From Cladochytrium replicatum (Eukaryota > Chytridiomycota > Chytridiomycetes > Cladochytriales > Cladochytriaceae), in contig JAHLKD010000095.1 of NCBI GenBank assembly GCA_025526935.1, forward strand, positions 1 to 64,000: 64,000 nucleotides of DNA. The letters are read 5' to 3'. Below the pieces are notes generated by a model. The model saw only the letters and a program-made list of their open reading frames with translations. It ran no database searches and was not told the DNA's origin. The position numbers and the translations under genes were made by a program. Shown here piece by piece: positions 9,169 to 64,000 of the stretch (position 1 is its first letter; the number at the start of each line of letters is the position of its first letter).

Positions 9169-9636
9169 ATTGTTTCAAGCCACCAGATTTTGTGAACTGT
9201 TTCTGTTTCTGTTTTTACTTCAGCAAATCATAGAATTTCTTAATCTCTTGTTCCTGTCATCATCGTCTTGAGTCTCTGTTGTTCATTCTAGTTTCATGCT
9301 CATCCTTGTTAACTGTTTCGTACCGTACTCTTCTGGCACATCCCCTCTGGTAGTTTCTTCCACAATTCTCTTCCACTCATCCATCCTGGCGAGTTCTGAT
9401 AGTGAGATGAGATCATATTACAACATACGCATACTAAACAAAAAAAAAAGCTTACATGAGCAAACCATCACGATTTGTGCAATCAAAGAAAAACTCGCTG
9501 AATCCAACAGCTGAACAAAATAATTGCACGAACGAGAAAACATTAAGTACTGTCGTGCAAAACCTTGACCGAAACCAAATATCCAAAACAATCGCACAAA
9601 TGTCCAATAAAAGCACAGCAGGCTAGACTTTCAAAT
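9169..9636. other. Convergent 3' intergenic region between PSD1 and GBE1
   Basis: T-rich then A-rich sequence, including an A run near 9440, between two convergent stop codons. It presumably holds both 3' UTRs and polyadenylation signals. No gene is seen. Confidence 0.5.
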
Positions 9637-33591: not shown

Positions 33592-34979
33592 CTAATTCAC
33601 GGTGATGGGCAGCTTGTTTGGTAAGGGGGTGAGGTCGGACTTTGTGGGTTCTTCGAGGGAGCACAGGTTGCCATCGTGGAAGGCCTCGATGAGGGACTTT
33701 ACAAGTGGGCCGAAATCGTTGAATTCGTTGCATTCGAATTCGAGCGAGACGGAGAACTTGCAGATGGCGGTGTACCATGTGGGATGCCCGCGGGCGATCG
33801 GAGTTACGAGGATTCATCGGAGTCGGCGGAGCAGGCGAGGTTGAGAAAGGTCGACAGGTCTGAGTTGGGATTGCCATGTTGGTAGGCGCGGGAGAGTGTT
33901 GGGTTGGATTTTTGGATATGTTTTAGAAAGAAGATGGTTTCGAGAGTCCACTTGGGGGTGTCGCGGATGAGCTGAAGTGCTTGCAGGTGGTATCAACAGT
34001 GTCCCAAGACTCGTACCCGCGGAACGGGTCTCACCATCCGCCGTCTACATTATGGTGCTAGAAAAAGCTGTCAAAGTCCAAGGAAATGCAACCAATGAGA
34101 ACGGGATAGCGGCTGGGCAGGAAGATATCGCTGACAAAAATGACGCTGCCAACGTCGAAGAACCACTGCAATCACCCGACCAGAGGTACTCCAGCCTGGG
34201 GTTCGGTTCTCCTTTCCAAAAGCAAGGGTAATTGGTGTTGAATCGTCGCGCGAAGCCTTTGTCGATTGTACACCGAAAGCTGCAGACCTCCAAGACCACG
34301 AGCCATGGCTCCCCACCACCACTTAAATAGGCCATGCTTCTTCTCCTTTTCGTTCCATCTCAGCTCCATATGCACACTTTCAGGACTAGCAAGCATTTCT
34401 TCGCGGTCATTACGAATCACCGAGCTCGCATCGCTGATCACCTTTTCGGACTCCTCCTCCTTCACTTCGACTTTTATCGTGGGTTCGTCGTCGATCTTGA
34501 TGATTGGATTTTGGCTGTCCGCTCCCTTCTCGTGTTTGATCGGTATCGGTTCAGGCTTCTTCTCCATCTTGGCGAGCGAGCGGTGGGGATGTTTTGGTTG
34601 TTCTTCCAGCAGCTTGAAATTCTCTGGTTGTGCTCTCGGCTGTTTTCAGAGGCGGGAACTTCTCGATCGACAACAGCACTCACCCTTCTCGCAGACGGAG
34701 AATCGGCAGAGCTTCTTGAACCAGGAACAAATCTCAAGCTCGGACTAGCACCTCCCGAACCTTATAAATCAGCATCCTACGCTCACAGTCGACCGTAACC
34801 GTAAATTGCTGCCTGAAACGCTTCTTCTGTTCCTCAAGCTTCACCAGTAAATCTTTCGCAATACTCCCCGAGCGCGCAGTTCCCGAGGACGACGACAATG
34901 ACTCTTCGTAGGCGGGCGGTTCCGGGGACGTCTGCTCAGAGGTGTACACCGTGACGCTGATCTTTCCGTTCTGGGCCAA
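33592..34979 (-). CDS. Uncharacterised multi-exon protein
   Basis: I do not recognise this gene. Coding-like pieces on the minus strand are MAQNGKISVTVYTSEQTSPE with an acidic Ser-rich stretch and EEQKKRFRQQFTVTVDCERR; then KMEKKPEPIPIKHEK with a Lys/Glu-rich region and HGLFKWWWGAMARGLGGLQL; then FFDVGSVIFVSDIFLPSRYP; and finally KWTLETIFFLKHIQKSNPTL, LSTFLNLACSADSDE and TWYTAICKFSVSLEFECNEF, ending LPITVN. A one-base shift is needed near 33820. Exon borders are not settled and the true start may lie further right (see 35070-35640). Confidence 0.45.
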
Positions 34980-35069
34980 CCTTCTGCGTTTGTGTTTGTT
35001 GGGGGCAGGTTCGCCCAGTACATCCTCGTAATTGTTTTTGCTATATTTATTCTTCTATGTCTGGTTCGT

Positions 35070-35640
35070 GTAACCCCCAACGTCTCGAACCTGGAATCGT
35101 TTAGTGTGCGGATGATTGGAGGACCAGTGTCTCCAAAGTTGCGATTTAAACCCAGATCCTGATCCGGAGTAGGCACAAGGAAAGGCTGGGGGTGAGCGAG
35201 ACCCATCGAATAGTTGGATCCCTCGGCCCAACAGGTTCTTGCGACCTCTGGCCACCATTATTCCCGTCACCGCTTACCCCGATGGGCAACCTTGTTCTGA
35301 TTACGGATATTGCCACCGTTGCAATTGTTTCCGCGTCCGCTGTTGATTTTATCGTGATTCCGGTGTCATGGGTTGTCGTACCCGATTGCAATTCCCTCGG
35401 TAAATCCTGCGACTGTTCACGTTGCGGTAGCTGTTGCTATATCTTACTCCATTCTATCTGCCTGCGTTCGATGATGAATTGGCACCTCTCTGGCCGTCCC
35501 TGCTCCCTCCCGACGACGAACGATTGTGGTTGTGTCCGTTTTTTGTTGCCGTGGCCGGTCGTCGTTTAGTGATGCGCATTTCTCCGGCGATGTATATGTT
35601 GTTGTTGCTGTTTGTTTCTACCGCTTCCTTAGTAATCCTC
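35070..35640 (-). other. Low-complexity region, possible 5' exons of the uncharacterised gene
   Basis: On the minus strand one frame reads MGLAHPQPFLVPTPDQDLGL then NRNFGDTGPPIIRTLNDSRF. It could precede the KISVTVYTSEQ exon. Further up, the sequence is rich in Asn/Gly/Arg-type codons. No family is recognised, and whether this is coding is uncertain. Confidence 0.3.
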
Positions 35641-35853
35641 CTGTCTTAGTAATCCTCCAGTATTGTATACTTCCATTTCCAATCTTCTTCCTACAAAGTT
35701 CCGTTCCGCTTTGAAATATTTGTATTTTTTGATCTCATCGGGTAATTTCGCTTCCGCAACTCCAAAAACTTTCGTCATCGTAAATCCGCAAACCCGCAAA
35801 AAGTCCGCCCTACGCTGTCCCCGAATCCATCTCTCCACTCACAAAATCCATCC

Positions 35854-37140
35854 ATGCGCTCAGAGACGCATCACCAGCAACACCAGCAGCCTCCCTCCCT
35901 CAACCTCACAACCGCCCTCTCGGCGTCCGCGCTCACCCCCTCCCTCCGTCCGTCCCCATCCTCCCCACTTCAAGTCGAATGCCTCGTCCGTGCCCGCATC
36001 CCCACAACAGACCTATCGCGCGGCCAATGCCACCTCCTCTCCTACATAAACAACCACGACGCGCTCGAGCACCTCGCGATCGTCTACGGTGACATCCACT
36101 CCAAATCCCTCAACCGCATCCTCGTCCACGGCGAAACGGACCTGGACAGAGCCGCGCGCGGCGCACTCAACCTTGAAAAAGCCCAGGCGTCGGGGTTTTT
36201 GGAGTGTGCGAACGGACATGTGAGTGGGAACGGGAACGGGGTTGTGCATGCACAGCCGAGGAACGCGAATGGGCACTCGGCGCTGTTGTTGGGTACGCAC
36301 GCTGCACATATTCATCCGAACGGACACGGACTCAATAGACCTGCGTCTGCGAACGGACTTACGTCATCGTCGTCCGCAGCAGCAGCAGCACCCGTCCTCC
36401 TACCCAACGGACACTCCACGCCTCCACCCTCGCCGCTTACCACCGCCAACAACAACGGTGCCGCATCATCACCCGAGTCCGCGCCGCTGGTACGGATCCA
36501 CTCGTCGTGTTTCACTGGCGAAACCCTCGGCTCCGCAAGATGCGATTGCGCAGAGCAGTTGCAAGAGTCGTTGAGGATGATTGCGAGCGAGGGGAGAGGC
36601 GTTGTCGTGTACTTGCAGCAAGAAGGTCGGGGCATCGGCCTCCGCGACAAGCTCAGGTACATTTCCATTTTATTTTTTTTGGTTTTCCGCAAATACTGAA
36701 GAATGCTTCTTCCTTTTTGCAGGGCATACAATTTACAGGATTTGGGTGCGGACACGGTGACCGCAAACACGTTGCTGCACCACCCGCCTGACGCACGTCA
36801 GTACACCGTCGCAGCGGCTATTTTGGCGGACCTTGGCGCGGACCCCGTGAGACTGCTCACGAACAATCCGGACAAGATCGCGCAGCTCACGAGGGACGGC
36901 GTGAGGGTCGCAGGGAGGGTTCCGATGGTGCCGCTTTCGTGGAGGGAGAGGAGGAAGAGCAGCAGCGCGGAGGGGAGGGTTGATGAGGTCGATGGGTATT
37001 TGATTACAAAAGTCAGAAAGATGAATCATTTGCTGGATTTGCCGTGGGAGGTGGAGAGTCCGACTGCACCGACGATAACGACAACGCCAACGGCGACGAA
37101 TGGGGCAACTGCTACAAATGGCACAGGACCGAATGTATGA
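35854..37140 (+). CDS. RIB1: GTP cyclohydrolase II (riboflavin biosynthesis)
   Basis: Catalyses the first committed step of riboflavin synthesis, turning GTP into a diaminopyrimidine. Two exons: 35854-36656 and 36723-37140. The core has [20 protein letters not shown], holding the three zinc-binding cysteines, and [17 protein letters not shown]. After the intron come [38 protein letters not shown] and [10 protein letters not shown]. The first half of the domain ([20 protein letters not shown] and [14 protein letters not shown]) is separated from the zinc site by about 90 residues rich in Gly, Asn, His, Ser and Ala (36200-36490), coded by repeats and not expected to be structured. The C-terminal tail is Thr/Ala/Asn-rich. 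The start at 35854 is the first ATG in frame. Confidence 0.95.
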
Positions 37141-37892
37141 CGGAAATGTTACTTTATATTGTGTCCAATGGCTGGATGCGGTTTGGGCTATGGAGTTTAT
37201 TGCAATTCCAAATGCGATCTGGAATCTTGCGTGAGATTTTGGATTCGTTTTCTATCTGCACAGACGACTTGTGCTTTTTAATCGCCAAGAATGGTTCCCT
37301 CACTTTCTGTTTCAACTTTCAGTCTTGTTGTTTTAGGAGTCGATCTTCCAATAAATCCACAACCAGCTTCATCACACAAGTTTTCTTTCTTCACCAGGTA
37401 TTATGTATGTATTCCTTGCTTAGTAAATAATGCATGCAGCGAGGAATTGGGGTTATCGTGTGCTCCTCATTCCTCGCTGCATGCAATGAGTTTTGTTGTG
37501 TTTTCGAAAAGGGGTCGAACTTACTGCGACAATCATAGCGAAAATCTTTCCCTTCTCTTTTCGTCCATCCTCAGAATGTCCCGACGTGGATACCATCATG
37601 GCCTCAAACCGAAGAATAAAACATTGACTGAAAGAGAAAGAGAAAAAAGCGAAAATTATTGATTATTGTCAGAAAGGATGGTGGGCGTACTGTGATGTAA
37701 GGACGGTTGGACGAAAGCGGCTCGAAAACGAGTGCACACTGCGTAGGTGTTTTTCAAGGCTCGTGGAACTGTTCTGGAAATTCCAAATGATTGCGTGAGA
37801 CGTGCATGATGCCGGGATGGACACACGTACACATCTTTCGGTTGCTGTGCAAACTGAGGAGGAAGGGGAACAGGGGGTGGATAATTAACTTA
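37141..37892. other. Intergenic region 3' of RIB1
   Basis: No supported gene. It holds the RIB1 3' UTR, a strong hairpin (listed separately) and a purine-rich stretch near 37620-37660. The 3' tail of the TBP fragment may extend to about 37680. Confidence 0.45.
37431..37485. repeat. Perfect 17-bp inverted repeat with 21-nt loop
   Basis: TGCATGCAGCGAGGAAT (37431-37447) is exactly complementary to ATTCCTCGCTGCATGCA (37469-37485). It lies about 300 bp past the RIB1 stop. It could be an RNA hairpin in the 3' UTR or the core of a small inverted-repeat element. Confidence 0.9.
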
Positions 37893-38232
37893 CCGCTAAG
37901 CACCGGGTAGATCTTCTCGAATGCATCGTAGATCTCCTGCCGGACTTTCGCACCAGTCAAAACGATCTTTCCAGATACGAAGATGAGAAGAACAATTTTA
38001 GGCGAGATCATGCGGTAAATTAGACCTGGGAACAACTCAGACTCGTACTGCCAAGGCGAAATGTTTTGCTTTCCTGACACAAACCATCCCACTGGGCTAA
38101 ACTGGCCGTGAGCGTACGCGAAACCTTCCAACCGAATAGGGAACTTGGCGTCGCAGGACCCGACAATATTCTGGATCTTGAAGTCGCTAAACTTTGCGGG
38201 GAGCCCGAGCTTTTGGATGATATGGGCATACC
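37893..38232 (-). pseudogene. TATA-binding protein, second half only
   Basis: On the minus strand the sequence gives [40 protein letters not shown], an in-frame 45-nt putative intron, then [20 protein letters not shown] and [30 protein letters not shown]. This is the second of the two TBP saddle repeats, well conserved. The first repeat, which should precede IIQKLG, is absent in all three frames up to 38550. The tail after YPVL runs through an intron at 37892-37854 into residues unlike the usual EFRK end. A functional TBP needs both repeats, so this is a fragment, perhaps of a duplicated gene. Confidence 0.75.
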
Positions 38233-38239
38233 CAGAGGG

Positions 38240-38480
38240 AGTTCATGCGCATCGCGGCTCGGCATGCCCCGACTTTCGCTGGTTCTGCAAGATCGATCAC
38301 TCGAAAACAAACGAAACGTACATCCGCACAATCCACGACGTAGACATAATACCGGGGAAATGGGATGGTGTGGCATCTCCGGCGAGGAAGAGGAAGGGAG
38401 AGCAGGCAGAAAAGGTTGAGTTGATGGAGGTAGAGGTGGAGGATAGCGCTAAACGTGCAAAGATGAGTGACGAACAATTC
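38240..38480 (+). pseudogene. Unrecognised gene fragment abutting the TBP fragment
   Basis: The plus strand reads CPDFRWFCKIDHSKTNETYI, RTIHDVDIIPGKWDGVASPA and then a Lys/Glu-rich tail (AEKVELMEVEVEDSAKRAKM). This has coding character but starts right where TBP homology on the opposite strand stops. I do not recognise the family. It may be the 3' end of another gene joined by rearrangement, or chance. Confidence 0.3.
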
Positions 38481-38550
38481 ATTTCAATCTGTACTCTTTT
38501 GATTGGGTTGATCGGACCACTATGTACTATTGGTAAAGAACCATCAAGAG

Positions 38551-39759
38551 ATGGACTGTGTGGAAGCAACTGTTGGGAAGAACCAGCTGCATTCACTCTT
38601 GGGAGGAACCTTTGCGATGCTCGTGATCGCAATCAGTTTCTGGGAAGTAAGGAGTGAACCCACATATGATCCAAACCGACCGCTGATTACCACAACCCAG
38701 CCCTCATCCTCGTCGCCTCGGACAAAATCGCACCAGCCATGCTCGTCGGCGGCATCGCGACCGTCAGCTGGATCGTCTCCTGGGCCTCCCTGACATTCCA
38801 CTCTGCAACCCGTGCCCTCATGATCCTCCTCCCATACCTCCGCCGCGTGCCAGTCTGGACCCTCAGCGGCGCGCTTGTAGTCGTGCAGCTCGGGATCAAC
38901 TCGGTTGGAGCGTACTACTTTGCCAGATCGAGTTTGCCGGATGGAACTGGTAAAACCAAAAACACTGAAAGATGTTGTAGATTTGATGGTTTTTTGTGGG
39001 ATAGATTGGGAGAAGAGGACGAGCAGAGCTGTATCGGTCGTGGAAGCGGTTTGGTATAGCTTGGTGGAGTCGTTGCTGTTCTTTGCGACCCAGTGAGTCT
39101 AAAAATAACCCCAACACCTCTCAAGGAATGTGGGTCGATAAAATCTGTGCATTTTCAGGTTCAAGATTGTCGCTACGGTGACTGAAGTCCGCCGCTTTTC
39201 GAATGTAACGAAAACAGGATTATCGGTGACGACACAGGAGTCTACCGCCGCAGCATCCGGGGCTACCATCATCGCTCGTCGTATATCGCGCGCGGTTCGA
39301 GACAGGGCTTTGCTGTATTTTAAAGCCTTCCTGCGCTGGGCGTTCTTCAGCACCAGCATCGCCATGACGTACCTAACCTTTGGCGGTCACCTCGGATCAA
39401 CGAAAGGTAAACAAAAGAGGGCTCCAAAACATACAATCTGAATCTATTCCACGCTTTTTCTTCAGCAAAGTATGTTAAAAGATGATCGCTATATAAGAAC
39501 CTTTTTCATGTGATATTTTTGTTTTTGCTTTTGAAAAAGTAACTGGAGCTCGAACGGGCTTATGATCTGCATCATGATCCTCATGACCGACTCGCTTCGG
39601 TTCCAGAACGCGCTGGAGCTATTGCAAGCGGGGGAGCACTCGTTTGGTGTCAATGGGGAGGGCGTGAGACGGGAAACTGCGAGAGTTCGACCGGTGGGGA
39701 CGGGTACGGGTTCTGTGGGCGTGCGGGTTCAGCGCGCGGGACGGGTTGAGTCGATGTGA
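38551..39759 (+). CDS. Seven-transmembrane-family paralogue A (probably altered)
   Basis: First member of a tandem membrane-protein family that I do not recognise. It opens MDCVEATVGKNQLHSLLGGT and TM1 (FAMLVIAISFWEV). The segment matching TM2 of copy D is missing and a frame change is needed near 38690. Then come TM3 (VSWASLTFHSATRALMILLP), TM4 (VWTLSGALVVVQLGINSVGA), TM5 (AVWYSLVESLLFFATQFKIV), a loop, TM6 (FLRWAFFSTSIAMTYLTFGG) and TM7 (WSSNGLMICIMILMTDSLRF), with a Gly/Arg-rich tail. Introns are at the same places as in copy D. The TM6-TM7 junction needs a 4-nt exon (39466-39469) between GT-AG introns. It may encode a six-helix variant or be a young pseudogene. Confidence 0.6.
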
Positions 39760-39779
39760 AATGATGACGGAAACATTCG

Positions 39780-40690
39780 AGCTCCTACGTGGGCAGGATG
39801 CAGAGATATTTTTATATTTTTGGAGCGGGCCTTCTATTGTTCGTTGGATGGTACTGCTCAGAAATTTCTTTTTTTTTTTTGCCACATGTACAAGCATATC
39901 CTGCGCCGAAGTCTGTAAACAGTATAGCCTTCACCTTCCTCGGTGTAACAACTATCGCCTGGATCTTGTCCTGAGCGTCTCTCACATTCCAGTCTGCGAC
40001 CCTGTTTCCCTACCTCCAACGGCCTGCAATATGGTTCCTCAGCGGCACCTTAGTGTTTTTTCAGCTTGCATTTAGATTGGTAGGAGGAGCATATTTCCTC
40101 GTCAGGTCCTAGTCAAATACGTATGATTAAATAGGTTGTTTTGGGTGCTCGGAAGTGATCTTCTGGGCATTTGAAGAATATGAGATCAGAGCGATCGACT
40201 TGTCACAAGTGCGGAGGGAACTTGGTACAGCGTGGTCGAGTCGTCGTTGTTTTTCGTACTCGGTAAGCGATTCTTCTAACGTCAAAACCGATTAAGATTC
40301 AACGAGTCTACTTTGCAAGGCCACGTCGCCACAGTGTCAAAAGTGCACCATATTTCACAAACGACCAACTCGATACCTAGTCCGACGTGAAGTGACGGTG
40401 GGGCTGCCTCGAATCGAACAACCAAATTGTACCACATATCGAAACATCTCAGTTCTTTACTTGAAAGAGCTTCAGCTTTCTACAGTGTCAGCAATCATGG
40501 TATACCTGACCATAGGCGGACACTTCCGATCAGTAAAGTGTGAGTTGCTTATTAAATTCATGTTACAGTTAAACTCAATTGCGGGTTGTTTCCCCTTGGT
40601 ATTTCAACAGCAACGCCATGATAGCATTGGATCTGGAACGGAGTGGAGAAACATTCTGTTTAAATTTTCTCTAAATACAAGATCATCACA
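39780..40690 (+). pseudogene. Seven-transmembrane-family paralogue B, decayed
   Basis: Recognisable pieces in array order: FTFLGVTTIAWILS, a TGA stop, ASLTFQSAT, FPYLQRPAIWFLSGTLVFFQ (TM3-TM4), EGTWYSVVESSLFFVL (TM5) and IMVYLTIGGHFRSVK (TM6). TM1 and TM7 are not found. An internal stop and loss of the ILL motif show that it cannot make the full protein. Confidence 0.65.
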
Positions 40691-40718
40691 ATTATTTTAG
40701 AAGTTAAGCAAATGCCAA

Positions 40719-40907
40719 ATGCCTCAAGAGCAAGAAGAGCACCAAGTCGACCTAGCGTTTCCGGGCTTCCACGATCCCCATTCGTTCGGAAAGACACCTG
40801 CTATGCTCTACATAAAAGGTGCTTTGCGCCTCATTTTCTTCAGCGCCAACGTTATTCACGGTCTATCTCATAATCGGTCAATCTTCACCAAAAAAAGTTG
40901 TTACTAA
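40719..40907 (+). pseudogene. Seven-transmembrane-family relic C (TM6 only)
   Basis: Contains LYIKGALRLIFFSANVI, which matches the start of TM6 in copies A and D (LHFKGMLRSAFFSANIV). The rest does not match. It is a short fragment of a further copy. Confidence 0.5.
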
Positions 40908-41448
40908 CCATCATCAGTTTTGTAAGTCACACTCCTTAGGGCTCGTCTTCCTTGTTTGATTCATCATTTTACCTATGATTTCCCTGCGCTTGGATTACAA
41001 ACGGCTTAAGTATCGCCATTTTCATCCTGATATTTTCAAATTGCTCTTGACCTTCTACATGGCGAGAAGATATAGAGTAGCCACGGAGAAGACCGGCGCG
41101 GAGACGGTCGATCTTGGAGGATGATAGGGGAGGGTAAAGGTATATGCGGAGGAAGTGAACGACGTTGGTTCGCCAGGCCAGGAGTTTCCAACAAGACTTG
41201 AATTCTAAGAAGCTCCACCAAGCTCTTAGAGTGGACAAACTGCGAGGTGCAGGAGGGTTCAGATGACTGTGCATCTGTGTTTTGCTGCCCACAGAAACAT
41301 TATGAAATTTTTAATACTTTGCATCTGTGTGGAACTAAAACTTGTATTGCTACCTACTACCTACGACGCTGATTGGCTGTTGATGAAGTTGTAGCTGCTC
41401 CAAAGCTGAAGAACAAGGCCTCGCCTCCCAAAAACACTTCTCCTAGGA
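40908..41448. other. Spacer upstream of paralogue D
   Basis: No supported gene. A minus-strand open frame at 40969-41292 has no recognisable features. The last 150 bp should hold the promoter of copy D. Confidence 0.4.
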
Positions 41449-42807
41449 ATGGACTGTATGATCATCTCTCTTACAAATCAAACACATTCAGTTGCCAATG
41501 GCATCTTCTGTCTCCTCGCTGTCGCCATTAGCTTCTGGGAAGTAAGAAAACAAAAATTCATGTATGGTGCCGGGGCTGATGTGAAATTCGAGAACTTTGA
41601 CAAGATCAAGAGCATGCTCCTATACTCCTCCATATTGCTAAGCATATTTTTCACAATAATCTCTGACGTATTGGCAATCATAGGTTAGTTGTGTTGCGTC
41701 AGTTTGGAGGGCTCCCGCTGTTCCTCTAACGAAAGCCAGGTTTTCAGGTTTTGTTAGCGGGGAAACCATCTTTCTCCGAGGGGTTTCTTAATTGGAGCAC
41801 ATTGTTTCGAGTTATATCGTGGGCGTTACTTACACTCCACTCTGCAACTCGAGCTTTCATGATCTTGCTCCCATACCTACGACGACCACCATTATGGGTA
41901 CTAAGCGGCGGACTTGTGGTGATTCAGTTATGCATAGACCTTGCTGGAGCAGTTTTCTTTATCAAGCTGCAACACCCAGACTTTACTGGTACGTGCGAAC
42001 AACTGTACGCTTCTCCATTCCAAAACTTGACTATCCAACATAGGAGATGATATCGCTATGAGCGAAAGGATCACGCTTGCCGAATCGATTTGGTTCAGTT
42101 TAGTGGAGTCTGTTTTGTTTTTCGCAACACAGTGCGTGAGAAGAAGAGTTTTTGGTGAGTAATTAAAATATGCTCTCAGGTACAAGATCATCTCGGCAGT
42201 GACCGAGGTGCAGCAAGTGGCTAGCAGCCCTCATCGCGCCACTCTGAGCCGACATACAGAGTCCACCTCACAATCTGCACCGCCGACAACATCGAGAACA
42301 ACAAAGTGGACATCTTTTGTGCTGCACTTCAAGGGAATGCTGCGGTCAGCTTTTTTCAGTGCCAACATTGTCATGACTTACCTCACTCTCGGTGGATACT
42401 TTGGGCCGAATAAATGTGAGACCGCTTGGTGTTCAAGATGAGATCTTGTCTAATTTTGGCCCCTTGTTGACTCCAGACATGTGAGTGTTCGGCGCGTTGT
42501 CATTCAGTCTTGACAGCTAATCAAGCTCATGTGTTTTCCCAGATCTTGGAGTTCCAATGGATTATGTATCTGTGTCCTCATTCTAATGACCGATGCTCTT
42601 CGGTTCCAGAGTGCCATTGACATTATCCGAAGCGACAATAATACAGGAGGTGGCTCAATCTCGACGGCACCTCGCACCAGTGCTGGATTGAGAAGCTTTG
42701 TACCAGGTTCCAGACAAAGCAGAGGGAAAGTGCATCCCGAAGCGAAAGACATTGGATCATCTGATGGTGCAATCTCTCCAGCTACAATAAAAGTTGAAGT
42801 TGCATAG
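41449..42807 (+). CDS. Seven-transmembrane protein, intact paralogue D
   Basis: Unrecognised family with seven predicted helices. TM1 is VANGIFCLLAVAISFWEV, TM2 SMLLYSSILLSIFFTIISDV, TM3 LFRVISWALLTLHSATRAFM, TM4 LWVLSGGLVVIQLCIDLAGA, TM5 SIWFSLVESVLFFATQYKII, TM6 GMLRSAFFSANIVMTYLTLG and TM7 NGLCICVLILMTDALRFQSA. The tail after TM7 is hydrophilic. Exons are 41449-41683, 41740-41988, 42044-42131, 42180-42415, a 4-nt exon ACAT at 42477-42480, and 42543-42807. The tiny exon is needed to keep frame into TM7. The topology is receptor-like, but no DRY or NPxxY motif is seen. Sensor, channel or transporter roles are all open. Confidence 0.7.
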
Positions 42808-44687
42808 CTACCATGGATAATGTGCATCAGCCGCGAAATAGATGTGAACATGTATTGGATTATGCATTAAATTTACATCACAGTGAAAGTCCCAATTTGA
42901 CAATTTGAGCGATCAAACTCCCTGCAAGCATCTCAATCCCCAATGGTGCATTGACATGTTGCTAGTCTTGGCGACGACGACGACGACTGCACGTTGACCT
43001 CGTCCAATATCACACCCCTTGTAGTTCCTATCAAGTCCATCAAGAAAACAAAATCAAAATTATTCCCGGACATACTCGAGCCTCATTGTTTTGAAACCTT
43101 TCTCAAGATTTTGCTTTGAAAGAAAAGCTGTACACCGCCATGCACATGGAGGTTCAAGCCACCGAACGAGGCCACAATCGAGGATCTAGCACACTGAATT
43201 GAACGACGAGATCCTCCGCGATCTCAGGTGTAAAAGTCTGTCGAAGAAATCAATATGAACCGAGAAACAAAGTGAGCAGCAGAACTCACAGTGGGTCAAT
43301 ATGTGCCATTGAACTCACTGTGGGGTCACACTCGGCCTTTTGGAACATTTCCATCCACTGTCGTTAGTGCTTCCTGGGACTGCTTGCTCAATAGGACGAG
43401 CTTGCTCAGCAGCTGGAATCGGCGAGCTACGGGATCCTCAACCAGAATTCCTTTCCGGGAAGTACAACTCTTCCCACCATCCCCACTCGTGTTAATGATG
43501 GTGTGGTTGGTTGTGTGTGGGGCTTGGGCTGGAGTTTACTTGGATAAACGCCACACTGTGCCACAGCCGGGCTTTTCTTGCTGTTTGTTTGCTAATGGTA
43601 AGTTGGGAGGATTTGTGGGAGAGAGTGTAATGAAGATAGCATCCCAAACTGTCGACGAAATACCGCTGACGATAACACGGATTAACATACATGCATCACC
43701 ATCTGAACACTCTCTATCCCCTCCACTAATTCATTGGTGCTGTTCGTTAAGATCATTCACTGATTCATTGTTCTTTCACTGTTAGGTTGAAAGGAGCCGC
43801 TGGAGCTGACGATCTTCCAGATTGATAGCATCGGACTGAACGTCGTCAGCTTCAGATCAGACTCTGCTCTTTTCTTTTTGTAGCTCTTCTCTTTTCACCG
43901 CACCTTAGACAGAATGGGGCAACCTTTAGGCAATGGATGCACATCATGATTCTGGCTCGCGAAGAGATACGAGAACTTGTTTCTCAGTTGGTTTCACTAG
44001 AACATATGAACTTCAACAGATGGCTAGGTCTTCTATCATCTCATGGTTCATCATGTGTAGACGAAGCCAAACATTTGTTGAATTTAAGCATCGAAGAATA
44101 AATATGGCACATTATTCGGCGATCATGCCATCCCCGTTTCTTTCCTCAATCTTCCCATCGTTTCTTCCGCTTGCGTACTTTTGCTCAAATTCTATTCTCG
44201 TATCCTCTCCATCTAAAATAACAATAACATAAACAATTTATCCAAAACCCATTTATATTGCACACACTTGCCGACACAGAGTGGCGCAAGCTTAACACGG
44301 AACCCTACCAAAAAGTCAAAGGTGAGATGGAAAAGGAAATGGCGAGCTGGCGTTGCTGCCATCAACAATTATAGAAGGTATGTACTAGAGCAGTATTAGA
44401 TCACTTATGTTTCCCTCTGGCTCCATTGGAGACCTCCCAATATCCATGGTGATAAAAGTTATAGCAACTGCTCTGAGCATCTTTTTTAAATAATCTTTTT
44501 TGCACTTTGTCCAGGTTATTGGGCAGCTATCCGTAGCGGCACGATATCGAGCTGCACTGGGTTTACATATGGGTCTTTTGGTTTCGATCTTCAGAAGCTG
44601 ATTAGAGTATTCACACAGGTTTTCTGGTCAGGCGAAAATCTACCTTAGAAAGCTGGGGAGCATTTGAGAAGAAAGAAATTTTTTGCT
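42808..44687. other. Long region without a supported gene
   Basis: Open frames at 43291-43785 (plus) and 43933-44232 (plus) lack family similarity and look like chance. Near 44280 the plus strand reads EWRKLNTEPYQKVKGEMEKE, slightly like the end of an HMG-box, but nothing supports it upstream. The 3' end should contain the promoter and 5' UTR of the RS protein. Confidence 0.4.
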
Positions 44688-47493
44688 ATGGGAGATCAGT
44701 CAAATCAGTACTGGGACTACTACTATAGCCAATATGGACAATCTGTGACTGGTAAGAATAGCACAGGATACGAGCCCCATATTTTCTGGGGATGTTGAAA
44801 TCCTTTATGTCCAGCCCCCAAAAGTGTCTCTTTTGCATTTTTTGATGCCAAGTGAATGCGAATGAATGTGCGGTTTGATCAACTCATCGCTCCGAATAAC
44901 AAGCTAACGATTTCTTTCTATCACAAATTTACTCACTGAAAAATAGCGTCAGATCCAGCACAACAATACGGACAGCAGTATGACGCTGAGACCTTGAAAG
45001 CTTGGGAAGAATATTGGAAAAACAACCCGGAAGCAGCCGAGGCGTATCACGCAAAGGCGAATGGTGATCAGAGTGCGCAGAATGGGAAGGTGATGACTGG
45101 AGCATCTGAGAACGGAAAGGCGGACAATGAGAAGTCCTCTGACAAATCGACGGCAGCTGCGCCGGCAGCGGAAGCCGGAGCACGGAAACGGGAGGACGGT
45201 GCATCCACGACAGGTACCACTTCGGTGAGTGTCAGTCAACTCAACTATGTAACGGAATGCGTATCAATATTTTGTTTTCTCAGGCCGGTTACTCTGGTTA
45301 CATTCCGGCGGAATATTACCAGTATTTCGGTGGAGGTTTCGAAGAACCATCTGCGGTCGGCCGTTCAATGCATGTTCCGTTTCGCCCATCTCCGAAAGGT
45401 TGGTCTCGAACGCTCGTATGGCCAAACCATATGCTGACAATTTTACAGTCACGCTGGTTGCTCACACGATTGTCAATCCGTTTTCAAGTAAGTCCTAGTC
45501 ATTTTGAAACGGAACCTTGCTCATTGATCTTTCGTTCAAGAATCAAACGCTTCAGAATCGGGAATTCAGAATGATTTGTCTGGAGCTTCGTCGGACAACA
45601 CAACCGCTTTGAAACGATTGCTAGAAAACGAAGAAATAGTGGTAATCGATGTGTAAAGAATAAGAGAGTCAAATCTGATCATTTCACTGAACTTAGGTTC
45701 CAGAAGCGAAGGTATCCGCCACTGAAATTGAGATCGTCGTTGTTAACAACGTTGTTAAAGAATTGGTGCTTGAGGTGATTCGTGAGGAGAAATTAAGAGT
45801 TGAGGGCAAATCAACCTCGAATGGCGCTTCAAATGCAGCAGAAGAAGACAACCGTACGATTGAGGGTGGGCGGTCCCCCGCATTGGCTACAGCGAGTATG
45901 GGCGCGACCAGCAATGGACTTACCAAGCGCTTTGACGTGCAGCTCAAAGCAACTGGCGTGTCGTCTGTATTTACGCAGAACCAGGAAGCTCAAAATAATC
46001 CCACTTCCCACCGTACTACAGTCGCTCACTCCGCTCTGAATAAAGGGACAACTCAGGCGTCGATCCTCCTGGCGACTCTTCAGAGTCAAACTGCAGAAGA
46101 ACGTGAGGAGTGGGCACGAGGACCTAAATATGGTGGAGGACGTCCTTACAGAGGGAGGTACTTTCGCCGTGGGGGGCGATACGGTCGACGATATTCGAGG
46201 GAAGATGAAGATAGAAGGGAGCACGACAGGGGACGGAATGATTCTAGAACGGATTATAGAAATGGACATGATCGTGACGCTGAATTTTCCACAGTCCGTC
46301 ATCGTGAGGAGAATGGTTCAGGCAGCGAAACAGAAGATGCTGATGTTCGACGACACAAAAAGAGGTCTACAAAACAGCGACACAGAAAGCGGTCAGGAGA
46401 AGACACCGAGGACGAACGCCGAAGTGTGAAGTTAGCCAGTTCCTCTAAGAAGGACAAATATTCCAGGCGGGATGACAGCGAACGTCGTAGCCGTTCGAAA
46501 CATGATAGAAAGAGCTCGAGTAGGAAGAAGACCTCCCAGAAACGACGATCGCCGTCAACCTCCTCAGACTCTGGAAGTTCGCGATCCAGATCAAGCTCGA
46601 TATCCTCTCAATCTGACTCGGATGTGTCAAGGCGACTATCGAACTCATCGAGCTCTCGAAGCTCCTCAGTGGACAGACGCAAGCGGTCTCCTGACTTGAA
46701 GCGGCTAGGGCGCGATGAGCACAATCTGCATAAGAGCGAGAGGGACGGGAGACGGTCGACGAAGGATTCTGGATCGGACAAAAGGGCAAAACGTGGACTG
46801 TCGAGACCGCCTTCGGATACTGAGGATGCTCCGTCTCGCTCCCAGGACCAGGTGCGTCGCACCCCGTCGAGCTCTACCAGATCGAGACCAACATCTGTAG
46901 AAGATCAAAGTCGCGAAACTGACAAACGGGAGGATGAGCGGCTTTTCAAACGAAATGAAGTCGGGGAGGGAAAGTCCACTGACAGTGTTTATCACAAAGA
47001 AGGAAATGCAAGTGATGGCGAATCGGACGAGGTCAAAAATGGTCTTACCGCGAAGGAAGATTGTGCTCAAGTTGAGTTGCAGCTAGTTAGATCCCACGGA
47101 GACGAAGATTCTGCTACTGACAGCGACTACAGACGTCATAGACGGAAGGATGGAAAAAGTCGTCGAGAACGTGGTGAGAAGAAACGGAAGGGACGAGAGG
47201 ACAGTGGGTCTGAGAATGATCATGGATCGAAGAAGAAACGAACGAGAAAGGCTTCTGGTGATCAGGAAGGTTCAAAAGGAGAGAGGACTGCTGTGGAACA
47301 TGTACTGGAACATCATATTAATATGTTGAGTGAGGACGAAAAGAAATGCCGCGAGAAAGAGCGAGAGCGTCGCCGGAGATCGAGGCGCGATTCGGATGCA
47401 GAGGGTGACAGGGAGAAGAAACGGAAAAGTAGCAGTTTGAAGAAAAGGGAAAGGAGTGGTGAACGTCATAAGAGCAGCCGCAAGCACCGGTGA
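44688..47493 (+). CDS. Arginine/serine-rich (RS-domain) nuclear protein
   Basis: The N-terminus is Tyr/Gln-rich (DQSNQYWDYYYSQYGQS) and is followed after introns by QQYDAETLKAWEEYWKNNPE, SGYIPAEYYQYFGGGFEEPS and a short conserved-looking region. The last exon, 45698-47493, codes for nearly 600 residues dominated by Arg-Ser, Arg-Glu/Asp and Lys-Arg tracts, with an Arg/Gly/Tyr patch (GGGRPYRGRYFRRGGRYGRR). RS domains of this kind are typical of pre-mRNA splicing proteins in nuclear speckles and are phosphorylated by SR kinases. No RRM is present, so it would act through protein contacts. The exact orthologue is not identified. Confidence 0.7.
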
Positions 47494-47681
47494 AGGACAA
47501 TTGAATTACAATCTTTGTTGCCAGTTGTTTTTGAGTAGAACACATATTTGTTGATCAACACTCAAAATATTTATGTCCACACGTGAGGGTGATCGAAGTC
47601 TCACAAACTTGCTGAACGTCGGTGCATTGCTGGGCTGGAGTAATTGAAGGAAGCATCTAGCTCCCAACGAAGCCAAGTGCG

Positions 47682-48428
47682 ATGACAGACCAGACTCCTG
47701 GTGCGAGACTTAAGCTCTCTGGGCATTTCGACGGAGAATCCGCCCTCAATATACTTTCAAAAGCGGAAGAGTACGAATGGGATCTTCTCCGGAAGATGCA
47801 GGCAAAATACAGGTCTATCATGGAGGCTCGAGCAGAGCAGAGGAGGCTTCTCGAGCAGGTCATCAACGACCTATCGCCACGCACAGAGTCGAGCCGAAGT
47901 AATCGAGAACCTCAACCTACGGATTCATCTGAATTCTTGAGTCGCCGGCAACCGCACGTCAACGGTGGGGCCGAAAATACATGGCAGGATCGATCTTCTG
48001 TCGACCAACTGTCAAGGGACGATGATCCGATCAGAGCGCCTTCGAAGCGACCGAAACAGAGCGATGAAGATGCTTTCAAAACTCCCTCGAAGCGAACGAA
48101 ACAAAGCAATGGATTCAGCGATGGCAGCAGCGCAACTTTCCTTCCCGGATCGGACAGGGCACTCCATGGGGACATGATCAAGCTGTACCTGAACTCGCCT
48201 CAGAAGAAAAGGTTTAAGATGTATGCGTACCCCGATGTACCCGTGGCCGAGGTGATGGAAGCTATCAGAGACGGCGGATTGGAGTTTGACAAGGCGACGT
48301 ATCAGGAGACACCGGTCGACGACGCTGTGGGAGGGAATCAGCGTACGCTCGAAGACTTTGGAGTACGGAGTGGATCTACTTTGGATCTTCGCTTGTCCGG
48401 TGACTCAATGGACGGCTCCACCGTCTGA
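47682..48428 (+). CDS. Protein with C-terminal ubiquitin-like fold, function unknown
   Basis: A single exon of 248 residues. An N-terminal coiled coil (KAEEYEWDLLRKMQAKYRSI, MEARAEQRRLLEQVINDL) is followed by a disordered Ser/Arg linker with a repeated motif (APSKRPKQSDEDAF and TPSKRTKQSNGF, a likely nuclear signal). The C-terminal domain (MIKLYLNSPQKKRFKMYAYP, VAEVMEAI, RTLEDFGVRSGSTLDLRL) has the strand-helix-strand order and LxDFGVxxGSTLxLxL ending of ubiquitin-like folds. No diglycine tail, so not a conjugated modifier. It is 190 bp downstream of the RS gene on the same strand. Confidence 0.65.
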   Translation: MTDQTPGARLKLSGHFDGESALNILSKAEEYEWDLLRKMQAKYRSIMEARAEQRRLLEQVINDLSPRTESSRSNREPQPTDSSEFLSRRQPHVNGGAENTWQDRSSVDQLSRDDDPIRAPSKRPKQSDEDAFKTPSKRTKQSNGFSDGSSATFLPGSDRALHGDMIKLYLNSPQKKRFKMYAYPDVPVAEVMEAIRDGGLEFDKATYQETPVDDAVGGNQRTLEDFGVRSGSTLDLRLSGDSMDGSTV

Positions 48429-48735
48429 ATACTACACGAATATTTTCTTTTCTTGTCTCCAATATCTAATTTTCTTTATTTTTTTTTCCAACGGGAATGA
48501 GATGGTGATGCTTCGTATTGCGGTCTTGTTTTGGGACTACGGATTTTTGGTCCAGTTCTGTTCTTTGAGCTCCATACTTCTTCTCACCTTGCTCCATCAA
48601 CTGCAGTATTTGTATTAGCTCGAACATGATAAAACAGATGCACTTCTTCAACTGATTAACAGTGTAAGACGATCCTTCCCAATAGTCTTCCCTCAGCTCT
48701 AAAGCCACACCGTCCCTTGCCTCGCTGCACCGAGA

Positions 48736-50089
48736 ATGCCGACAGACTCCAACACCATGCCCATCGACGGCAGGCCGTCAGGTGGCTCTTCCAACACTGG
48801 AACTGTCCTGCTTGCTGCAAATAGGACCGTTCTCGCGGGTACTTACCCCGTCCTTGGGGTTGGATACTGGACAACACATCCATCACTATGGGCATTGACT
48901 TTGTGCCACGTTATCATCGCAGGTAAGTGAATGTTATGCAACATCTCAGAGACTCAGTGTCTCTTGGATACGGAAGAATATTACATCGGAGCGGCAAGAC
49001 TACGTTGCCTGGTGGGCTGAATGTTATGGTTGCTTGCTCTGATTTCAAATCATTTCGCTTCATTGCTCTCTTTTAGTCGCAGTTTCGTTCGTCATTACGA
49101 TCTTTATGTTCATTTTCCTCCTGCCGCTACAAGCCCGAGCGCTTATGAATCTCAACTGCCCGGAATGGTCAGTTTCTGCAAAGCTTTTCGTTTGGTTTTG
49201 TTTGCATGGCGGATGCTGTCTGTGAGCGCACAGAATGGGAGTTTTGCTTATGGTATGTCTTGCCGTCATAGGGCTGCATGGCTCGTTTGTGTTCTTTTCA
49301 CCTTGATTGAGTCAAGCGTCGCATCCGTTGTTTTCAGTTTGCTGTATATTTTCTTGGTAAGCTTGGAATTTGCAGCAGACGTCTGTCATTCCCATTCTCA
49401 TCTGCTCATTCTGTACCAGTTTGTGATGGACCGCATTTTCGACCTAGTGATGAAACAGCGCGGACATGGCAACATTGCAAAACGAGCGGAGGAACTTCGA
49501 AAGGTTTGCAGTATACGATAATTGCGAAGTTCATGTTTCTGACGTATCAATCGAAGCGTGAGCGAAGCTGCACCAGAGGGTTCCAAAGGTTTTTACATCC
49601 CCTCTCGTTCACCCTCTGCGTGATTCTTGTTGCTCCGATTTCTATCATCCCGATTGTTGGATGGTACATCTTTTTCCTTGTGAACGGATACTTCACCGGT
49701 AATTATTATCCCGCATTATGAAATATTCGTGCTGATTGACAAATGTTTTAACAGCATGGGGATGCCATCTTCACTATTTTGATCAACTCCAGATGACCGG
49801 AAAGGAGGCTCACCAATATATGAGATCTCATTGGAATGAGGTAAGTTTGTTTCACACTTCTTCTCCGTACGGTTCTCATTTTCATCCTCAGTACATGAGC
49901 TTTGGTTGGTCTGCAGGTGGGATGGGGCTGCTTCCGTTTGGCATTGGAACCTTCACTATGTTCACATCGACCGTTGGGTCAGCTCTCTGGGCAGCCGATC
50001 TGGAGGATGAGCACCGAGGACCGATTTCCGAGCTGGAGGCAGCCGCAGCTGGGGATGTGCCAACGCCAGCAATCGCAGCTACTGTATAA
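48736..50089 (+). CDS. EI24/CysZ-family membrane protein (Lds1/Lds2/Rrt8-like)
   Basis: Several exons. The product begins MPTDSNTMPIDGRPSGGSSN, then LAGTYPVLGVGYWTTHPSLW, a family-like re-entrant start. Membrane segments follow: VAVSFVITIFMFIFLLPLQA, AAWLVCVLFTLIESSVASVV (with FSLLYIFL) and FTLCVILVAPISIIPIVGWY. Between them is FDLVMKQRGHGNIAKRAEEL, like the FDxVLRxRG element of the family. The last exon has MGLLPFGIGTFTMFTSTVGS. In yeast, related proteins sit on lipid droplets and at the spore wall; the role here is unknown. Intron count and edges are approximate. Confidence 0.65.
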
Positions 50090-50205
50090 AGTCCCCGGAT
50101 TAATGTTATATGTCGTTGTGGTTTTCAATTATTTCTAAGTTGAATAGTATTTGCGCGTTGTCATTTCGTCAACATTTGCCCAGAAAGGAAATTACGCGAA
50201 CACAT

Positions 50206-52057
50206 ATGCCACTTGACAGTATCATTGGTGATCAACAGCTCGGCTCCTTCGCTGCATACGCAGATAAGCATGAGCTTTTTGACTTGTTCCAGAAAATGGT
50301 AGCGCGCATTATCATAGAAAGGCCACCAGACGTTCTTCAGTTCATGATCGATATGTTGAAAGCACCGAAAGGTTAGTACGTTGCATCAATCTTGCACTCG
50401 GAATACTCATTGGAAAGGACTGTGAAAAGTGCCTCAAATAATGATCATCGCACCTCCGTCTTGTGGGCGCACTCAAGTGGTGAGTGGATTCTGATTGTAT
50501 TGGCGACAAATCATAAACTTCAGTTGCTATAACCAAGTGTCAGGCACTCGCGAAACAGCTGAACGCGGTCCACATCTCAGCGTCCGCTTTGTTAAAAACC
50601 GCTATTGAAAAACAGAGTCCGATGGGGATGCAAGCCAGGCCATTCATGGAGAAAGGGAAGATGGTTCCCGATGTAATCATGATGGGGCTTCTATCATTAA
50701 GGCTTGCACAAGGAGAAAACACTCCCAGCGGCAGTGAAGTTGCTGCGCGTGGTTTCGTCCTCGAAGGAATGCCTCGAAACAGGGAGCAAGTTTATGCGCT
50801 TCAGAAGAAGGGACTGTTCCCTTCGCATTTTGGTATTAAAAAGGTTATAAGTGCGCATTGCTCGATTTCTCATTAGTTTCATGTTTTTTAGTCATTCTTG
50901 AGATCCCAGACGAAATAATTCTGCTGCATACAGTGGGAACGGTCATTGATCCCATCACAAATACCCGATACCATCCTCTCCACAACCCTGTTCCTCCCAA
51001 CAGCCCAATTCTTGAGTCACGGCTTATTCAGCGTGCATCTGACAGTGCTCCTGCTGTGAAGGCACGGTTGGCGCTGTATCGAAGGCACTTACCCGGCGTT
51101 CTTGCCACAACACGGGGATTTTCCAGATCCTTCACTTACACAGATGGAATATCATTTGGACAAGGGGCTGTTGAAAGGGTTGTTCGTGATCTCATGGAAT
51201 ATGTGCGAACACAGCCGGTCTCGGCTGCTCCTCGGTCATTCCGAATCGTATTGGCTGGATTGCCAGGGTGCGGGAAGACGCAAGTTGCCAAGAAATTAGA
51301 GGAGCGCCATGGTTTTGTTCATGGTGAGAAATACAGGTTTGTTGAGAAAATCCAGAAGCTGAAACTTGAGCGACAGTTTCGCCATTCAACATTATAATGG
51401 AGCAAATGTCGCAGCGTACAACCCAAGGAAAGCTGCTGGCTCCGTATCTGGAGTTTCCAGAAGATGGTCTGAATCAATGCACCATATTGGACCTACCACT
51501 AACTTTGCCCCACTTGATTTAGCGCCAGAGACCATCATGATTGAGCTTATTGCTGCACGTCTAAAAGAAATGGATGCCGTTGATCGCGGCTGGGTTCTTG
51601 AAGGCTTTCCATTGACGTCTGCTCAGTCGAAGGCATTGAAGGAGCTCGGATTAGTTCCGAACAGGCAAATATAACACCTCAATCGCAACCCCAAGGTCAT
51701 AATGATCTTTAAATCTTCTGAAATAGGGTGATCTGGTTCTCATGCAGCCCCGATACATGCATCAATAGACTGACTTCAACGCATGTGGTTCAAGGAACAG
51801 GAAGGTTAAGCGCTGGTGGTCGGCGACTACAAAAAGCAGCGGTTGATCCGGGCAAGGTCCGCATGAGGGTTGAGCGGCTGGAGGCCATGAAGGCAGACCT
51901 GGAAACCGCTTATGGGTATAGGATTTTTGGACAAGCTGAAGCTGAGGGCATCATGCAGGAAATTGACGCAGAGGATATTAAAGAGGATCGTCTGCATGAG
52001 ATGGTTGAAGGAGCACTTTTGCGATCAATTCCTGAGAGACTGGTTGATCTAAACTGA
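50206..52057 (+). CDS. AK8: Adenylate kinase 8-type protein (two kinase domains)
   Basis: The N-terminus reads YADKHELFDLFQKMVARIII with ERPPDVLQFMIDMLK, the docking-like helix of AK8. Domain 1 has a P-loop variant (IIAPPSCGRTQ), GFVLEGMPRNREQVYALQ (lid/NMP region) and VIDPITNTRYH. Domain 2 has IVLAGLPGCGKTQVAKKLEE, VDRGWVLEGFPLTSAQSKAL and a C-terminal helical region. Both halves carry the adenylate kinase order P-loop, then GWVLEGFP. AK8 and its relatives are components of motile cilia and flagella and balance ATP/ADP/AMP along the axoneme. Exons are joined by short introns; the stretch 51300-51400 has an uncertain splice. The presence of AK8 implies flagellated zoospores. Confidence 0.82.
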
Positions 52058-52219
52058 GCACAATTTTCGTAATAGCATAATATTTCCACAAAGATCGATA
52101 GCTCAACTCGACTGAACTGTGATTTTGAACATGAAGAACGGTCCTTGTATTCCAACTAGGTGAGTGGTGACAGTCAATTACGACTGAGTCACCCATCAAT
52201 TGCACATCCACCAGACACG

Positions 52220-53242
52220 ATGCAGTCGTACGATACTCTCGTCACAGGCTCCGCTGGCCATCTCGGTGCAGCTCTGATGCTCACTCTTCCTTCTCTTGGA
52301 TACACGCCTCTTGGGATCGACATTCTACCGTCCGCAACAACCGATCTAGTTGGGTCCATAACGGACCGTAATTTTATCCGGGGGATTTTCGAAGGTAGCG
52401 ATATCAAGCACATCGTTCACGCGGCAACTCTCCATAAACCCCACGTCGAGTCGCACTCCAAGCAGGAGTTTGTGGACACCAACATCACAGGCACGCTTGT
52501 CCTATTGGAGGAAGCTGCATCAGCTCTCGGCGGCGAGAGAAACCAAATCGAAAGTTTCGTCTTCATCAGCACAACGAGTGCTTTTGGTGGTGCCCTTAGC
52601 GCTAAACCCGGCGAGCCAGCCGCGTGGATAGATGAAAACGTGACGCCAAAGCCGAGAAACATTTACGGTGTCACGAAAGTCGCCGCCGAGGATCTGTGCT
52701 CTCTGATCCACAAGGATTCGGGGCTACCTGTGGTCATTCTTCGAACCAGCCGCTTCTTCAACGAGGCAGATGATGATGAGGAGAGACGCGATGCGATGGA
52801 TGATGCGAACCTGAAAGTGCTGGAGTTGGCTTATCGTCGCTGCGACATGGAGGACATCGTTTCAGCATGCGATCTCGCGATGAAGAAGGCTCGCAAACTG
52901 GGTTTCGCGCGTTACATCATCTCAGCGCCGCCGCCCTTTGCAAACGATCGAGATACCCTCATAGCTTTAAACTCCGATCCGAGAGAGCTTTTTGGGAATG
53001 TCCACCCAGGAGTTAGAGAGGTATTTGAGAGGAAGGGTTGGAAGCACCTCAAGAGAGTAGACAGAGTTTATGATTCCAGCAAGGCAGCTAGGGAGCTGGG
53101 GTGGGAGCCAAAATTTACCTTCAAGAATGTGATTCTTTCTATTCGAGATGGAAAGGAGAACGCTTGGCTCAGTGAATTGGGAAGAAAGATTGGGAAGAAG
53201 GGTTACCACCAGACAACAACAGGCATTTACACCACTCGTTGA
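52220..53242 (+). CDS. NAD-dependent epimerase/dehydratase (extended SDR)
   Basis: Single exon, about 340 residues. The Rossmann motif TLVTGSAGHLGAAL starts at residue 5, so the ATG at 52220 is preferred over one 60 nt upstream. GIDILPSATTDLVG follows with the acidic residue typical of NAD(H) binding at the second strand, then KHIVHAATLHKP, FVFISTTSAFG and the active-site YGVTK. The C-terminal region (RVYDSSKAARELGWEPKFTF) is shared with UDP-sugar epimerases such as GalE-like proteins. The substrate cannot be read from sequence. It starts about 160 bp downstream of the AK8 stop. Confidence 0.85.
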   Translation: MQSYDTLVTGSAGHLGAALMLTLPSLGYTPLGIDILPSATTDLVGSITDRNFIRGIFEGSDIKHIVHAATLHKPHVESHSKQEFVDTNITGTLVLLEEAASALGGERNQIESFVFISTTSAFGGALSAKPGEPAAWIDENVTPKPRNIYGVTKVAAEDLCSLIHKDSGLPVVILRTSRFFNEADDDEERRDAMDDANLKVLELAYRRCDMEDIVSACDLAMKKARKLGFARYIISAPPPFANDRDTLIALNSDPRELFGNVHPGVREVFERKGWKHLKRVDRVYDSSKAARELGWEPKFTFKNVILSIRDGKENAWLSELGRKIGKKGYHQTTTGIYTTR

Positions 53243-63022: not shown

Positions 63023-64000
63023 ATGTCTAACGAGCTCGAGAAACCAATCGCAGTTGAGGATACTCCTCAGATGGATGATACAACTCCCATCAACACCATT
63101 GTACAGCAAGAATCCGATAAAAAGGACGGCGGGGAAGGTTTCGACGCGCTCCTGATCGAGGAGGCGTGCCTCTCGTGGAGCGAGGATGAGGAGAGGGCGA
63201 TTGTTCGGTTAGTTGCGGCGAATTCGCCAGAAGAACTGATCTCTAATTGAGTGCAACGCAGGAAAATGGACGTGCAAATCATCCCGTGGATCTCCGCGAT
63301 GTATCTTTTGAGTTTCCTTGATCGTGTTAATATCGGTGGGGCATTTGGATTCTGTGATTTCGAGTGTTCTTGTAACCTGACCTCGTGATCTCTTTAAGGA
63401 AATGCCAAAGTTGTCAATTGTACGTCAATGGAGAGTCTCTACATCCGTTGCTAATATCGTATCATCCACCCTTCTCAGCAAACACCTCTGGGATTGGCTC
63501 GTTGGAAGCAGATCTTGGCCTTGTGGGTGATCAGGTATGTAGCGATCAAATATGACACGCCCGTATTGATTCGTGATTTATAGTACAATTGGGCGTTGTC
63601 CATCTTTTTTGTTGGCTATGTGATCTTCGAGGTTCCAAGCAACCTCATGCTCAAGCGCGTTCGCCCTTCCCGTTGGGTACAAAGTCCAGTTAGCTGTCAA
63701 CCTTCACTTCTTACTCTAATGTTTCAGCTTGCTCGCATCATGGTCAGCTGGGGATTATTCGCTGCGCTCCTTGCTGCCTCAGTGAACTTCGGTGAGCACA
63801 TCGATTTTGTTCACTTCACAACTTAATACAAATATCTATCCTAATTGAATAGCGTCTATCATGATTTTCAGGCTCTTGCTTGGCATAATGGAAGCAGGGC
63901 TGTTCCCGGGAATTCTCTTCTACTTGTAAGCTCGTTGATCCACGTACCATATATGGTGCACCACTCATGAATCCAAGGTCATTCTGGTTCCGCAAGCACG
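63023..64000 (+). CDS. MFS transporter, tandem paralogue, cut by window end
   Basis: Starts MSNELEKPIAVEDTPQMDDT and follows the first transporter segment by segment: KMDVQIIPWISAMYLLSFLD, RVNIGNAKVVN, YNWALSIFFVGYVIFEVPSN, LARIMVSWGLFAALLAASVN, MIFRLLLGIMEAGLFPGILF and SFWFRKH at the edge. Introns sit at the same places, including the 21-nt exon (63399-63419). The pair is a recent tandem duplication. The N-terminal tails differ more than the membrane core. The rest lies outside the window. Confidence 0.88.

Follow-up and report, generated by a model that had tools for sequence, protein, structure and literature searches.

Class A G protein-coupled receptors (GPCRs) carry a DRY motif at the end of helix 3 and an NPxxY motif in helix 7, whereas microbial rhodopsins are marked by a retinal-binding lysine in helix 7. 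Fungal opsin-related proteins without this lysine provide a scaffold- or chaperone-like precedent, and insect OR/GR-type channels and PAQR/HlyIII proteins have their N-terminus inside. In fungi, 17 GPCR classes have been surveyed in 1357 species, and Cladochytrium is not named in the main text of that survey (PMC12842992). Chytrid zoospores swim toward chemicals, e.g. N-acetylglucosamine in Rhizoclosmatium (PMC12115818), and the receptors for chytrid chemotaxis are not named in the literature searched (titles and abstract openings). Here, we describe a gene array in a 64,000-nucleotide (nt) stretch of the Cladochytrium replicatum genome (positions 1–64,000 of contig JAHLKD010000095.1; the whole stretch is referred to as the window, and its contig is C95 in the numbering used here for the 50.5 Mb assembly). 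Positions 38551–42807 contain four copies (A–D) of one gene, all on the + strand. These boundaries are exact, as the ATG of copy A starts at 38551 and the stop codon of copy D ends at 42807.

Judging from sequence searches, the array belongs to a previously unclassified seven-helix family that has so far been found only in C. replicatum. The reading that we favour, with moderate confidence, is that its members are lineage-specific GPCR-like surface receptors, plausibly chemoreceptors, that are renewed by duplication and loss and kept by purifying selection. The intact copy D (41449–42807, + strand) was modelled by spliced alignment with a paralogue-informed query. It comprises seven exons (41449–41541, 41593–41683, 41740–41988, 42044–42131, 42180–42415, 42477–42480, and 42543–42807) of 93, 91, 249, 88, 236, 4, and 265 nt, the last of which includes the stop codon, and six introns of 48–62 nt, every one of them GT–AG. 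The likely product has 341 amino acids and seven helices. A model of 358 amino acids from six exons was replaced, as the paralogues point to an additional first intron (41542–41592, + strand; 51 nt, GT..GAG, in frame). This intron is easily taken as coding because its 51 nt contain no in-frame stop; its GAG acceptor is unusual and is also present in C88 copy 1, a paralogue on contig C88. The original prediction of seven hydrophobic segments in one spliced frame stands with a corrected exon model, and the frame reads through GT–AG introns. Six distinct segments exceed a mean hydropathy of 1.3 over 19 residues. Below this cut-off lies the sixth helix, FFSANIVMTYLTLGG, whose counterpart is helical in the AlphaFold2 (AF2) models of both paralogues used as stand-ins for copy D (deposited proteins P0012 and P0005). 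The deposited protein for copy D itself, P0001, has a late start, and its 4-nt exon is prolonged into the preceding intron.

The original prediction had named a strong Pfam match, or an absence of homologues and expression, as findings that would speak against it. Copy D matched no Pfam family at E ≤ 10 and no PDB relative by sequence, in line with the proposal of an unrecognised family; homologues were found, but inside the C. replicatum genome only. Among the 11 sequences of profile A1, weak Pfam matches to DUF4748 (E 0.0038), Prok-E2_E, Ufd2P_core, and GPHR_N were judged to be chance because each occurred in one member only. The only PDB match of the profile, diacylglycerol kinase (E 0.17–0.21), was likewise judged to be chance. 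Neither copy D (E ≤ 10) nor the 11 A1 sequences matched DUF6534, 7tm_1 (PF00001), class C GPCR (PF00003), or cAMP-receptor-like (PF05462) profiles. In a protein set of 5.8 billion sequences, all matches listed were from C. replicatum (3, 19, and 12, with the 19 drawn from a set limited to 8000 candidates); because the matching depends on shared 5-residue words, more distant relatives may have escaped it. Among 54 pattern matches in viral contigs and 80 in genomes taken one per prokaryote species, none was a relative.

Within the genome, D-like exons recur widely (best other copy on C88, E 3.7e-51), so the observation is not due to chance. Searches with copy D, one C-type protein, and one C39 protein located family exons on C1, C3, C4, C17, C31, C33, C39, C43, C54, C68, C88, C92, C94, C95, C102, and C111, with one short match on C18. 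The array had been described as local, and it is indeed a tandem array in the window, but the family is genome-wide. Spliced alignment yielded models for 40 copies, 33 of which are free of frameshifts and stops in the modelled part (a count that includes one partial model, C39_5, and leaves out copies B and C and fragments). A tree of 32 lesion-free sequences resolves two subfamilies, D-type (21 models) and C-type (19 models, 17 lesion-free). Of the 17 lesion-free C-type models, 16 share a core of four exons measuring 71 (or 68), 80, 223, and 361 (or 364) nt, and one, L046_293, was modelled with five exons. D-type members share 40% identity on average and C-type members 67%, and the mean between the two subfamilies is 32% (15 and 17 sequences). 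C-type proteins have long tails with a high content of S, Q, N, G, and Y; the C-terminal tails of P0004, P0006, P0008, P0011, and P0017 are of low complexity, and several contain repeats such as SQYGGSQ and GSQNGQYGSQ. C39_4 and C39_5 (L032, C39:35800–45799, about 7991–10000) stand in tandem ∼869 bases apart with near-identical translations, which may reflect either an error of assembly or a duplication that took place very recently. A weak family match at 63178–63393 (− strand) of the window (E 0.11 genome-wide with copy D, <1e-3 in a window-only search) is possibly a low-complexity match.

In D-type copies, exon 5 and the helix-7 exon are separated by two introns with a 4-nt exon between them. 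In copy D this micro-exon is ACAT (42477–42480, + strand), and its omission shifts the frame into the helix-7 exon. When candidates were defined as AG-NNNN-GT flanked on each side by 38 nt or more, 20 of the 21 D-type copies contained one apiece, with an expectation of 2.3 after shuffling of the intervening sequence; as the copies are related, these 20 candidates are not independent events. The same scan gave no candidate in the D-type copy on C17. The bases vary from copy to copy (ACAT, CAAA, TGCA, TTGT, CATC, and others), and the length and phase are constant. The splice path chosen by the aligner varies with the query, and so does its choice of the micro-exon, which was picked in 15 of 18 copies with copy D as the query and in 18 of 21 D-type copies with nearer queries. 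With the D query, C39_2 received the micro-exon, and C68_1, C33_2, and C88_5 were given one long intron; with nearer queries, C68_1 and C33_2 received it, and C39_2 did not. C88_5 was assigned one long intron under both query sets despite its candidate micro-exon. The deposited protein P0012, a C68 copy, agrees with the micro-exon. The micro-exon is conserved across the D-type subfamily, with its splicing predicted by alignment. It offers a test case for the recognition of very short exons by fungi and illustrates how automatic gene models come to be wrong for such genes, as in the deposited model of copy D. Neither the family nor the micro-exon is described in the literature searched (titles and abstract openings; few subscription journals covered).

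Computed loop charges, with positive residues in loops 1–2, 3–4, and 5–6, predict a topology in which the N-terminus is outside. Both AF2 models contain seven long helices, and Foldseek ranks GPCRs first for both. In VIA-align, all 50 matches listed for P0012 are GPCRs. Structural resemblance is to GPCRs for both models and, equally well for one of them, to microbial rhodopsins; a GPCR-like fold of the family is supported, though not decisively. Residues that are invariant or near-invariant in both subfamilies (P0005 numbering) include, by helix, W86, T90, H92, and R96 (helix 3), Q119 (helix 4), E153, W156, S158, E161, F165, and Q169 (helix 5), R197 and N204 (helix 6), and T238, D239, and R242 (helix 7). 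Such a set would fit a shared signalling core.

Several results weigh against a receptor of the GPCR type. Microbial rhodopsins occupy the top two VIA-align rows for P0005, 9 of the 50 Foldseek matches listed for P0012 are either rhodopsins or unrelated proteins, neither model has a Foldseek match with E < 0.001, and the fold-search scores are near values that helical bundles often reach. As noted above, no GPCR profile matched copy D or the A1 sequences. The alignments contain no DRY- or NPxxY-type motifs in helices 3 and 7; instead, T-x-H-x3-R is found in helix 3, and LILMTD-x2-RF-type ends are found in helix 7. Conservation of the inner and outer helix halves does not differ significantly (p = 0.11), with inner halves more conserved in helices 1, 2, 3, and 5 and the reverse in helices 4, 6, and 7. 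In eight closely related gene pairs (described below), change is not significantly faster in extracellular than in cytosolic loops (30/330 against 24/395, p = 0.16). The same holds for outer against inner helix halves (36/607 against 31/640, p = 0.45).

The rhodopsin-like rows raise the possibility, which we regard as unlikely, that the proteins are non-photochemical relatives of microbial rhodopsins in which the type-1 bundle was retained to act as a chaperone or as a scaffold in the membrane, in keeping with the opsin-related precedent. Within the aligned stretch of helix 7, lysine occurs in 5 of 32 sequences and at three different positions, so there is no conserved helix-7 lysine. No Pfam rhodopsin match was obtained at E ≤ 10 for copy D or the 11 A1 sequences, and the GPCR-first rankings given above also speak against this possibility. 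A lineage-specific seven-helix transporter or ion channel is rather unlikely as well. The (near-)invariant E153 and E161 of helix 5 and Q119 of helix 4 are buried polar residues of a kind that could serve transport, loop divergence gives no hint of ligand-facing change, and some of the listed microbial rhodopsins (ClR, NmHR, and KR2) are light-driven ion pumps. However, rhodopsin pumps are the sole transporters among the 50 VIA-align rows listed per model, the retinal lysine is missing here, and the predicted N-outside orientation is opposite to that of insect OR/GR-type channels and PAQR proteins.

The remaining copies of the array document loss. Copy A (38551–39759, + strand; spliced alignment, deposited as P0003) consists of exon 1 (38551–38646), a remnant of exon 3 that extends to 38949, and exons at 39005–39092, 39159–39406, 39466–39469, and 39540–39759. 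It lacks the 91-nt exon 2, which encodes most of helix 2. Its micro-exon is CAAA (39466–39469), a reading that P0003 includes. Copy B (39927–40671, + strand) is a pseudogene relic with two stops and two frameshifts in read-through, and its best match is C88 copy 5 (674 nt, 64% identity). Copy C (40670–41308, + strand) is a pseudogene relic of the 3′ half with two frameshifts, and its best match is C88 copy 3. Both of these C88 copies are lesion-free in the modelled part. The predicted composition of one intact copy, one altered copy, and two relics is supported. The accompanying proposal that copies A, B, and C carry matching segments in the same order as copy D holds for copy A, which has all four segment types (FHSATRA-, SLVES-, MTYLT-, and NGLMIC-type). 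For the relics it holds in part only: the fourth motif (SNGLxICxLILMTD) can be made out in copies A and D but not in B or C.

The array lies in a collinear block (33625–53242) that corresponds, in inverted order, to C88:143.5–168.9 kb in blastn pieces of 65–93% identity. At the corresponding place, the C88 block has a five-copy array without frame lesions. The partner of copy D is C88 copy 1 (86.7% amino-acid identity; ratio of nonsynonymous to synonymous divergence, dN/dS, 0.108), copy A has only a decayed remnant as its C88 counterpart, and the window yielded no counterpart of C88 copies 2 or 4. Copy loss thus appears to have been independent and to have struck different copies in the two blocks. 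Eight closely related pairs (copy D/C88 copy 1, C43/C68, five C3/C92, and C102/C54) have dN/dS of 0.005–0.117 at dS of 0.28–0.93 and are under purifying selection. For two of three within-array pairs, dN/dS was 0.076 and 0.111, with dS saturated; the third was not computable. The original prediction of fast birth and death thus stands for copy turnover relative to the C88 block but not for sequence change: copy number turns over, and the sequences are constrained. An ordinary decayed duplicate of a housekeeping membrane family, for which the array and its relics would say nothing about sensing, could account for the strong constraint of several pairs (dN/dS down to 0.005), and the losses in the window could be routine after block duplication. 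Such an origin is very unlikely, as it poorly explains 33 lesion-free models that are mostly clustered and the lack of detected relatives in other organisms.

The C3 and C92 arrays also hold near-matching copies, with dS of about 0.3–0.9 for the paired genes. The blocks may derive from a whole-genome or other old duplication, from the two genomes of a hybrid, or from diverged haplotypes; the literature searched on ploidy in zoosporic fungi offers nothing specific to C. replicatum. Beside the array, a TATA-binding protein gene (PF00352; 37757–38242, − strand) lacks, from ∼38230, part of the first repeat, which its C88 counterpart has from 163769 onward; the copy in the window seems to be a duplicate truncated near the start of the 7-transmembrane (7TM) array. 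A GTP cyclohydrolase II gene (PF00925, two neighbouring frames; 35746–37137, + strand) is also matched in the C88 block, and an NAD-dependent epimerase/dehydratase frame (PF01370) is located at 52160–53239 (+ strand).

Under the favoured reading of GPCR-like surface receptors, the window array would be a decayed local part of the C. replicatum seven-helix family. The proteins would reside at the cell surface with the N-terminus outside and the tail inside, recognise a ligand from outside the cell by means of the outer half of the bundle, and act via heterotrimeric G proteins. The receptors would plausibly serve zoospore or rhizoid chemosensing, with tandem duplication and loss renewing the repertoire and purifying selection keeping the survivors. 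The genome contains nine G-alpha loci (exon matches grouped) and one borderline match on C120. A stronger version, in which the family is a new, Cladochytrium-born class of G protein-coupled chemoreceptors with about 33 lesion-free copies and a subfamily-wide micro-exon that forms the main zoospore chemosensory repertoire, is put forward only tentatively. The family outnumbers the other receptor profiles searched in the genome: class C matches form about 15 loci (exon matches grouped), cAMP-receptor-like matches exceed the cut-off in six places, all of these are located away from the family copies, and the single PF00001 match, on C152, is sub-threshold. The size of the family supplies concrete candidate receptor genes.

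Compared with known systems, the family differs from the Ste2 pheromone receptor (7% identity) in being multi-copy, arranged in arrays, and without a Pfam match. In contrast to microbial type-1 rhodopsins and fungal opsin-related proteins, it has neither a conserved helix-7 lysine nor a Pfam match. With class A GPCRs (PF00001), it shares seven helices and a predicted N-outside orientation, and its predicted bundle superposes on theirs at scores near those that helical bundles often reach, but it lacks a profile match and the DRY/NPxxY-type motifs, identity in the VIA-align structural alignments is 5–14%, and the protein searches detected it in C. replicatum only. The unclassified 7TM sequences of the fungal survey could contain the family (PMC12842992). 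The candidate GPCRs of the Pth11-like type in Pezizomycotina and of the DUF6534 group in Agaricomycotina belong to different phyla, and the family described here has no Pfam match. They are nonetheless similar to it as lineage-restricted 7TM proteins, and the DUF6534 group is likewise receptor-like by computation only, as presented in the survey (PMC12842992).

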